A stretch of DNA of 51,219 nucleotides from Opitutales bacterium (GTDB lineage Bacteria > Verrucomicrobiota > Verrucomicrobiia > Opitutales > UBA953): the NCBI GenBank assembly GCA_017546455.1, contig JAFYWY010000030.1, positions 1-51,219 on the forward strand, written 5' to 3'. The notes under the pieces are model-generated. The model was not told the DNA's origin, made no database searches, and was given only the letters and a program-made list of their open reading frames with translations. The first letter of the stretch is position 1. Every line of letters starts with the position of its first letter. Both the position numbers and the translations under genes were made by a program. Below, piece by piece: positions 28,163 through 29,873 of this stretch.

Positions 28163-29278
28163 ATGCTCAAAAAATTAAAATTTCTTTGGATCTTGCTTGC
28201 GGGGGCGCTTTGCTTCGGCGTTTCTCCGGGGACGCTTTGGGCGCAGCAGACGCGTAAGGCGGACGTGAAAGCAAAGGCAAACGCGGACGAATCGGACTTG
28301 GGCGAATCGAAACTCGAGGACTTGCCCGGGGAGAATTTTTCTGCCGCATGGCCGAAACTGACGAAGATTGTTGATATGCTGCCTGCTCGCGTCGTTGAGG
28401 AAAACGGCAAAAAGAATGTTTACGAGACGGAGCATTTTTCGTTTACCTGCACGGCGCCGGTCCATCTTTCGGCGATTCGTGATATCGCACGTATTTTCGA
28501 GGGAACTTATACGGCGAATCTGGCACTGCCGCTGAACTCGCCCTGCAACTATTATCAGGTCGCGGAAAAGGGCAAGCTGAAGGCCGTGCTTTTCGAGACG
28601 AAAGAGGAATATTTGAAGGTCGTCGGCTCGGAAAATAAAAGCTCGGCGGGTATTTGCCGTTCGACTTCGACGATGGAAACCTCCTGCATTTTTGTACCTT
28701 TCGAATCCCTCGGTTTGGAGAAAGCCGGGTCGAAATACAAGCGCGGGACGCGCAAGATTCCCGCGCATGTACTGGCTCATGAACTGACGCACTTTATGAC
28801 GCTCCCGGGCTATCACTATCCGAGCTGGTATCTCGAAGGGATCGCCGAATACGTCGGAATTACCGATTACGCCAACGGGCGTTTTTCTTTTGCGGGAAAC
28901 AAAAAGGAAATTGTCGCTTTTGTCTCCGCCTACGGGAAGGAAGGCAACAGCGGCCGCGGTCTCGGCAAAAACATTCGAGTCCCGATGTCGCTCGAAAAAT
29001 TCATGGGTCTGCCGTACAAGGAATTTACGCAGAATCCGCAATTTGCCTACGGCTTTTCGGCTTTGCTTGCGTATTATTTCTTCCACCTCGACGGGAAAAA
29101 GGATGCTGCACGTATCAAGGCTTTCGTCCGCGCAATTCAGGAGGGGAAAAACCACGATGCGGCGCATGCGCTTTTGCTCGACGGGCGCGACTGGGACAAG
29201 CTTGAAAAGGACGTGGTTCGCGGCTTGAAGACGCTTGGCTTCCGCATCGAATTCCCGAAGCCGGCCAAGAAAAAATAG
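28163..29278 (+). CDS. Secreted zinc metallopeptidase-like protein
   Basis: The 371-aa protein has a signal peptide (FLWILLAGALCFGVSPGTLWAQ). A zinc-binding HELTH motif is at 206-210, followed by Glu229 in LEGIAEYVG, the spacing expected for gluzincin-type metallopeptidases (His, His, Glu ligands). The YPSWYLEGIAEY stretch is common in the peptidase MA / DUF1570-like group. The active site is intact, so proteolytic activity in the periplasm or outside the cell is plausible, but the substrate is unknown. It forms its own unit between the beta-galactosidase and the BATS-domain gene. Confidence 0.78.
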   Translation: MLKKLKFLWILLAGALCFGVSPGTLWAQQTRKADVKAKANADESDLGESKLEDLPGENFSAAWPKLTKIVDMLPARVVEENGKKNVYETEHFSFTCTAPVHLSAIRDIARIFEGTYTANLALPLNSPCNYYQVAEKGKLKAVLFETKEEYLKVVGSENKSSAGICRSTSTMETSCIFVPFESLGLEKAGSKYKRGTRKIPAHVLAHELTHFMTLPGYHYPSWYLEGIAEYVGITDYANGRFSFAGNKKEIVAFVSAYGKEGNSGRGLGKNIRVPMSLEKFMGLPYKEFTQNPQFAYGFSALLAYYFFHLDGKKDAARIKAFVRAIQEGKNHDAAHALLLDGRDWDKLEKDVVRGLKTLGFRIEFPKPAKKK

Positions 29279-29345
29279 CGCGGGAAATTTGCCTTAACAA
29301 GCGATGCGGGAAAGCGTAAGCTCTGCCCATTAATACTTTTTTATC

Positions 29346-29873
29346 ATGCCGCTTTATCATATCGAAGACGTTCGTAAAGTTTTTAACCTTCCGCTTCCGA
29401 CCCTGGTTTACCACGCGCAGGAAGTCCAGCAACGTATGCTCGTGACCGACGGTATCGTCGTTCAGGAAAGCGCGGAATACGATGCCGCACCGCGTTGCGA
29501 AAACGTCGAAAGCTGCCTGCAAAAGCTCATTGAGCTTTCCAATGCGGACAAGCATCCCGAAACGCTCGCGCTCGACGCCCTGATTCCCTGCCCGCCGGAA
29601 GATCTCTTCGACTGGGTCCGCCTGACCGCACTCGCACGCGTTATGCTTCCGAAGACCCTGATTCGCATTCCCGCCGATTGCGGCAACGATGCCGTGCTTG
29701 CTCTTTGCTGCTGCGCCGGGGCCAATGCACTTTCCGGTGCGAATCCGCTTTTCGTAAACAGCCTCAAGATGCGTAACATCGATTTTGAAGAGCATCACAA
29801 AAAGGTACACGGCTGCCGCGGTGACGGCTCCTGCGGGCATTGCACCTGCGGAAAGCACGACCACCACCACTAA
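29346..29873 (+). CDS. Orphan BATS-domain protein (biotin synthase-like, no radical-SAM core) with Cys/His-rich tail
   Basis: The 175-aa protein matches two separated parts of biotin synthase. Residues 10-33 (KVFNLPLPTLVYHAQEVQQR) resemble the N-terminal helix of BioB, and residues 72-142 resemble its C-terminal BATS region (EDLFDWVRLTALARVMLPKT, CCCAGANAL). The barrel with the CxxxCxxC cluster motif is missing: only about 40 residues lie between the two parts. The C-terminus has clustered cysteines (GCRGDGSCGHCTCGK, Cys157-168) and ends HDHHH, a probable metal site. There is no frameshift and the gene looks intact. A biotin- or thiamine-pathway accessory role, or a metal-handling role, is possible; the function is unknown. 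Confidence 0.7.
   Translation: MPLYHIEDVRKVFNLPLPTLVYHAQEVQQRMLVTDGIVVQESAEYDAAPRCENVESCLQKLIELSNADKHPETLALDALIPCPPEDLFDWVRLTALARVMLPKTLIRIPADCGNDAVLALCCCAGANALSGANPLFVNSLKMRNIDFEEHHKKVHGCRGDGSCGHCTCGKHDHHH

Follow-up and report, generated by a model that had tools for sequence, protein, structure and literature searches.

The BATS domain is common to enzymes of the BioB, ThiH, HydG and HydE type. In biotin synthase (BioB) the [2Fe-2S] cluster is bound by Cys97, Cys128, Cys188 and Arg260, and in actinobacteria a biotin synthase auxiliary protein, BsaP (Rv1590), works beside a BioB that lacks one of the cluster ligands; in Pseudonocardia it is fused to BioB (PMC11099021). Literature searches, whose coverage left out most subscription papers, returned neither a stand-alone BATS protein nor a radical-SAM pseudoenzyme of the kind described below.

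The gene of interest lies in a DNA stretch of 51,219 nucleotides, which we refer to as a whole as the window. Its open reading frame starts with an ATG at 29346, ends with the stop codon at 29873 on the forward strand and encodes 175 amino acids. The first ~39 residues of BioB lead over to the last quarter of BioB, the BATS region, and then to a Cys-rich tail, while the radical-SAM core is gone. We therefore call the product core-less.

Architecture and descent of the core-less protein

The following elements are distinguished in the window copy:

29346..29873, forward strand: core-less BioB remnant gene, an open reading frame with orthologues in four more genomes of the genus
29355..29462, forward strand: BioB N-terminal helical segment, residues 4-39 (YHIEDVRKVFNLPLPTLVYHAQEVQQRM...), aligned with the full-BioB N-termini of the genus; phmmer matches the stretch 2-31 to 1r30
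29463..29513, forward strand: linker, residues 40-56, where the radical-SAM core has been lost, from the alignment with the BioBs of G001, G003 and G006
29514..29741, forward strand: alpha-6/beta-7/alpha-7/beta-8/alpha-8 (BATS) region, residues 57-132, from phmmer, the five-protein profile on 1r30 and Pfam BATS in five of five
29790..29858, forward strand: Cys/His tail, residues 149-171, EHHKKVHGCRGDGSCGHCTCGKH, with Cys157, 163, 166, 168 and His150, 151, 155, 165, 171 invariant in five of five
29859..29870, forward strand: terminal DHHH, missing from the four orthologues

A phmmer search of the PDB found a single protein, E. coli BioB (1r30), at E = 4.8e-6; the match covers residues 58-130, and a second, weak one covers 2-31. 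A profile built from the five core-less proteins again found 1r30 alone (E = 1.1e-13). The full-length BioBs of the genus match the window protein at E = 1e-23 to 2e-25, with 47-50% identity over the retained parts and the tail. By these matches the core-less protein shares descent with BioB. The window copy itself is 50-51% identical to its four orthologues in the genus.

Along the alignment, the core-less proteins follow the BioB N-terminal segment until just before the first barrel strand. The deleted stretch runs through the strand preceding helix alpha-6, and alpha-6 to alpha-8 are kept, minus two small loops; strands and helices are named here in the established BioB barrel nomenclature. 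Absent are the CxxxCxxC motif and the equivalents of Cys97, 128 and 188, which are the Cys ligands to the [2Fe-2S] cluster. The initial annotation, made from the window alone, had described an orphan BATS-type protein without a radical-SAM core, and phmmer, profile and alignment all bear this out. It had put about 40 residues between the two BioB-like parts in place of the barrel: the barrel is indeed lost, and the unalignable linker is only about 17 residues long (40-56) because helix alpha-6 (57-71) is retained too. Four Cys within 12 residues and an HDHHH end, also noted there, are both present; the final DHHH is peculiar to the window copy, the other four stopping at H171. A search with the BATS profile, proposed as a check, gave a divided answer. 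Pfam BATS (PF06968) matches residues 78-130 of the window protein below the cut-off (15.3 bits against a gathering score of 22.2, E = 0.023), and it matches all five core-less relatives, at best with E = 5.8e-7. The biotin synthase family TIGR00433 scores 13.8 bits on the window protein against a curated cut-off of 225 bits. Judged by its residues and matches, the protein thus belongs to the BioB family by descent and is by every catalytic criterion no biotin synthase. A single-sequence AlphaFold model has a mean pLDDT of 40.5, too low to place the Cys residues or to serve as query in a fold search.

Searched with the core-less profile, 373 sampled genomes of the order otherwise yielded BioB, mostly in frames of ordinary length; the few shorter frames are interpreted as fragments or as frames cut by a contig end. 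Outside the genus, these genomes gave no recognisable stand-alone BATS protein of this kind. PADLOC and PHROGs gave no match, and a scan of viral contigs found no relative. The single match in a scan of named genomes, L032 (Peptococcaceae), was rejected as a chance similarity over a short unrelated stretch ending at a stop.

Apparent loss of the biotin pathway and purifying selection on the remnant

Where does such a protein come from? Our sample of the genus comprises eight genomes, of which five carry the core-less form (this genome, G000, together with G002, G004, G005 and G007) and three a full-length BioB (G001, G003 and G006) that scores above the curated cut-off and bears the same Cys tail. 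The two forms are mutually exclusive (5 vs 3 genomes, none with both). As the alignments read, the core-less protein arose from the genus's own BioB by in-frame deletion of the core, and the full form already carries the tail. An assembly artefact is very unlikely because five separate copies have the same architecture, though several of the genomes may be draft or metagenome assemblies.

The core-less genomes group together in the biotin-ligase tree (eight genomes; support of the deepest split moderate, 0.82) as well as in the histidyl-tRNA synthetase (HisRS) tree (six genomes), which makes one deletion event the simplest account, likely in an ancestor that all five share. Within the ligase comparison we also observed that G001 and G006 have BioBs that are 90% identical over shared columns and biotin ligases that are just 45% identical, hinting at a bioB transfer or at unusually fast ligase evolution.

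The rest of the pathway follows the same division. Matches to bioA above the cut-off occur in exactly the three full-BioB genomes, and the five core-less genomes give distant aminotransferase matches only. For bioD, G001 and G003 lie above the curated cut-off and G006 just below it (71 vs 83 bits), while each core-less genome shows a weak match alone (36-41 bits), as relatives of the family give. Biotin ligase, or the family of its relatives, has one match in every one of the eight genomes, and BioY is absent from all eight. Biotin synthesis has thus apparently been lost in the core-less genomes.

These absences bear directly on one possible role, that of an accessory to a biotin synthase or of one part of a BioB split in two, the barrel being encoded elsewhere. 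Stand-alone helpers do exist, as mycobacterial BsaP illustrates (PMC11099021). Such helpers coexist with bioB, and the BioB profile at E <= 0.001 found no barrel or full-length BioB in any of the five core-less genomes, which also lack recognisable bioD and bioA orthologues; the core-less protein therefore cannot assist a BioB. For the stand-alone accessory considered in the initial annotation, a role serving BioB or biotin synthesis is not supported. The survey for co-occurrence with bioB or biotin genes that it had suggested showed, within the genus, the core-less form and full BioB excluding each other, with recognisable bioA and bioD missing beside the core-less form. We regard an accessory or split-enzyme role as highly improbable.

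A gene left behind in genomes without the rest of its pathway could also be a neutral bioB relic on its way out, the more so as single deletions often mark decay. Selection speaks against it. Among the four closer core-less copies dN/dS lies at 0.017-0.10, for synonymous distances of 0.4-1.3 per site (33-62% of synonymous sites differ); the bootstrap upper limits for the four pairs tested are 0.045-0.119, far from the values near 1 of a pseudogene. When random substitution was simulated at distances of 0.5-1.2, the frame stayed open in about 0.05-0.6% of runs. By these measures the core-less gene is shown to be under strong purifying selection. With the frame open in five genomes and the tail invariant, the selection test refutes the relic, to which we give next to no credence, and upholds the earlier statement that the gene is intact and not simply a decayed bioB.

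Along the protein, constraint is weakest in the linker. Between two close subgroups the core-less copies are 86-87% identical, compared with 64-68% for the biotin ligases and about 91% for HisRS, a constraint tighter than that on biotin ligase. The more distant window copy shows lower identity to the subgroups' copies (52-53%) than its biotin ligase does (59-66%).

The region upstream of the gene contains a further shared element:

29281..29290, forward strand: upstream string CGGGAAATTT; a similar string precedes other core-less genes

The common string is GGGAAATTT; in four copies TATTAT comes after it, some 12 nt ahead of the ATG, which suggests that a promoter has been kept upstream of core-less genes. 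Upstream of the window copy no match to a sigma-70 consensus promoter was found, and Rfam showed no known RNA element near the gene. As for the neighbourhood, dnaE follows the core-less gene in four genomes and other genes surround the window copy; no Fe-S, metal or partner gene constantly accompanies it across the five genomes.

Two further reading frames were noted at this locus. Upstream, at 28163-29278 on the forward strand, the window encodes an exported-looking protein of 371 amino acids that has an HELTHFM (HExxH) motif and falls into no Pfam family. G004 and G005 too have homologues of it close to the core-less gene. On the reverse strand, an antisense frame of 251 amino acids (29115-29870) overlaps the core-less gene and was judged a by-product of GC-rich codons.

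New cysteines, a seemingly portable tail and possible functions

Comparing the five core-less proteins with 24 distinct full BioBs singles out four positions within the retained fold:

29514..29516, forward strand: Cys57, an Arg in 24 of 24 full BioBs and Cys in five of five core-less proteins
29664..29666, forward strand: Arg107, the retained equivalent of the [2Fe-2S] ligand Arg260 of E. coli, invariant in the five core-less and 24 full proteins
29679..29681, forward strand: Cys112, the Arg of SAGR in 24 of 24 full BioBs and Cys in five of five core-less proteins
29706..29708, forward strand: Cys121, invariant in core-less and full BioB

Counted along the 1r30 chain, with 23 extra N-terminal residues assumed, Arg107 corresponds to Arg260, and the Arg of SAGR is residue 265 and distinct from it. 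Of the ligand set, three Cys are thus deleted and the Arg260 equivalent alone is kept. Also retained are Arg92, Arg98, Lys103, the GAN motif and much of the N-terminal helix. His150, 151 and 155, ahead of the Cys motif, are gains of the core-less form, in which they are invariant; among the 24 full BioBs a single one has a His at the first of these positions. Altogether seven Cys are invariant (57, 112, 121, 157, 163, 166 and 168), including two gained from Arg, and given this pattern a role in metal or Fe-S binding appears plausible.

The tail has a history of its own. Every one of the eight genomes has its motif CxGDGxCxxCTCG on BioB or on the remnant. In addition, the motif stands at the end of HisRS in G000, G003, G004, G005 and G006 and, with one residue inserted, in G007; the HisRS comparison covered these six genomes.

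G000:C44:23123-23173: HisRS tail copy (loci L002 and L059; further loci L060, L061, L062, L063 and L072)

Elsewhere in the family no copy of the motif was found, HisRS being compared within the genus only, and Pfam gave no match on the tail at E <= 10. From this distribution the tail seems to be a portable C-terminal module. HisRS does not belong to the Fe-S enzymes, and the purpose of the tail may accordingly lie outside Fe-S chemistry. Short Cys-rich C-terminal ends are likewise found on full BioBs from other genera of the family, for example EESCGQGGCGCK, ESCGQGGCGCK and EGCGSGCGCKL, so BioB had acquired a Cys tail before the core deletion. Ends of this type (CGxGGCGCK and similar) are seen on full BioBs across the genera of the family, for instance at L012, L014, L024 and L064, and are possibly linked to cluster resupply.

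What, then, could the remnant be doing? The selection pattern, and the fact that thiolates and His have been gained and kept, suggest a small metal- or cluster-binding scaffold. We favour, tentatively and at somewhat less than an even chance, a repurposed BioB remnant that would act as a small thiolate/metal, possibly Fe-S, binder or carrier. The radical-SAM core has been lost in frame, and both BioB ends and the pre-existing Cys tail are kept as one small protein. Such a protein should have no binding site left for SAM, dethiobiotin or the [4Fe-4S] cluster, which would exclude biotin synthesis. Its BATS part could serve as a small scaffold, on which the invariant Cys57, 112 and 121 of the fold and Cys157, 163, 166, 168 and His of the tail may bind a metal or a small Fe-S cluster. 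The metal or cluster might sit between the internal Cys or on the tail, to be stored, carried, handed on or sensed. In the whole enzyme the tail may have acted similarly, for example in the resupply of BioB's sacrificial [2Fe-2S] cluster. Counting against the carrier are the lack of a constant Fe-S or metal gene nearby and of a recognised RNA element or consensus promoter, and the presence of the tail on HisRS.

The main rival to this metal/Fe-S carrier is a reading in which the remnant serves as a protein-protein adaptor or regulator and not for the sake of metal chemistry. It would have kept a BioB docking surface for an Fe-S assembly factor or dimer partner, and the tail would be a Zn-stabilised hook. 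Such a surface would fit the invariance of Arg92, Arg98 and Lys103 and of a large part of the N-terminal helix, and the recurrence of the tail on HisRS resembles that of a docking tag. No partner gene travels with the core-less gene, however, and an adaptor alone leaves the two new invariant Cys inside the domain unexplained; we consider it possible and rather doubtful. Alternatively, the remnant could help another radical-SAM or sulfur-transfer enzyme with a BATS-like end, of the ThiH, HydG or HydE type, by supplying a cluster or thiol. That these families have the BATS domain in common and that the core-less protein is rich in thiolates would agree with this role, which we nonetheless rate as improbable.

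Loss of a pathway is usually followed by decay of its enzymes. In this case the two ends are strongly constrained and new invariant Cys have appeared, although the catalytic core is gone. The remnant would be a natural case of a radical-SAM enzyme turned non-enzyme, and would show the BATS end of the barrel folding and acting alone. In its boldest form, which we think speculative and would not expect to hold in every part, the proposal reads as follows: in organisms without the vitamin pathway, an in-frame core deletion made a vitamin enzyme into a new small thiolate-based metal/Fe-S carrier on roughly a quarter of a TIM barrel, its tail being a portable metal-binding module also present on HisRS. 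The case makes the role of Cys-rich BioB tails testable and bears on how BioB rebuilds its sacrificial [2Fe-2S] cluster.

Relation to known systems

The nearest functional parallel is BsaP, likewise a small protein with a link to BioB, whose conserved Cys probably hold an Fe-S cluster. Whereas BsaP is encoded with a BioB and acts on it, no BioB partner is present in the five core-less genomes, and the parent BioB of the genus keeps all its ligands. Compared as patterns, the Cys arrangements differ too, CxxC...C in BsaP and Cx5CxxCxC in the core-less protein.

With E. coli BioB (1r30) the core-less protein shares the N-terminal helical segment, alpha-6 to alpha-8 and the Arg260 equivalent, and the parent of the genus has the same Cys tail; it differs in lacking the radical-SAM core, CxxxCxxC and Cys97, 128 and 188. 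The Pfam BATS domain, normally the C-terminal part of BioB, ThiH and HydG, here stands alone without a barrel. The tail, finally, presumably differs from SEC-C in the order and spacing of its Cys, and resembles metallothionein-like and SEC-C-like Cys tails in being a short Cys/His-rich terminal motif that is portable between proteins.
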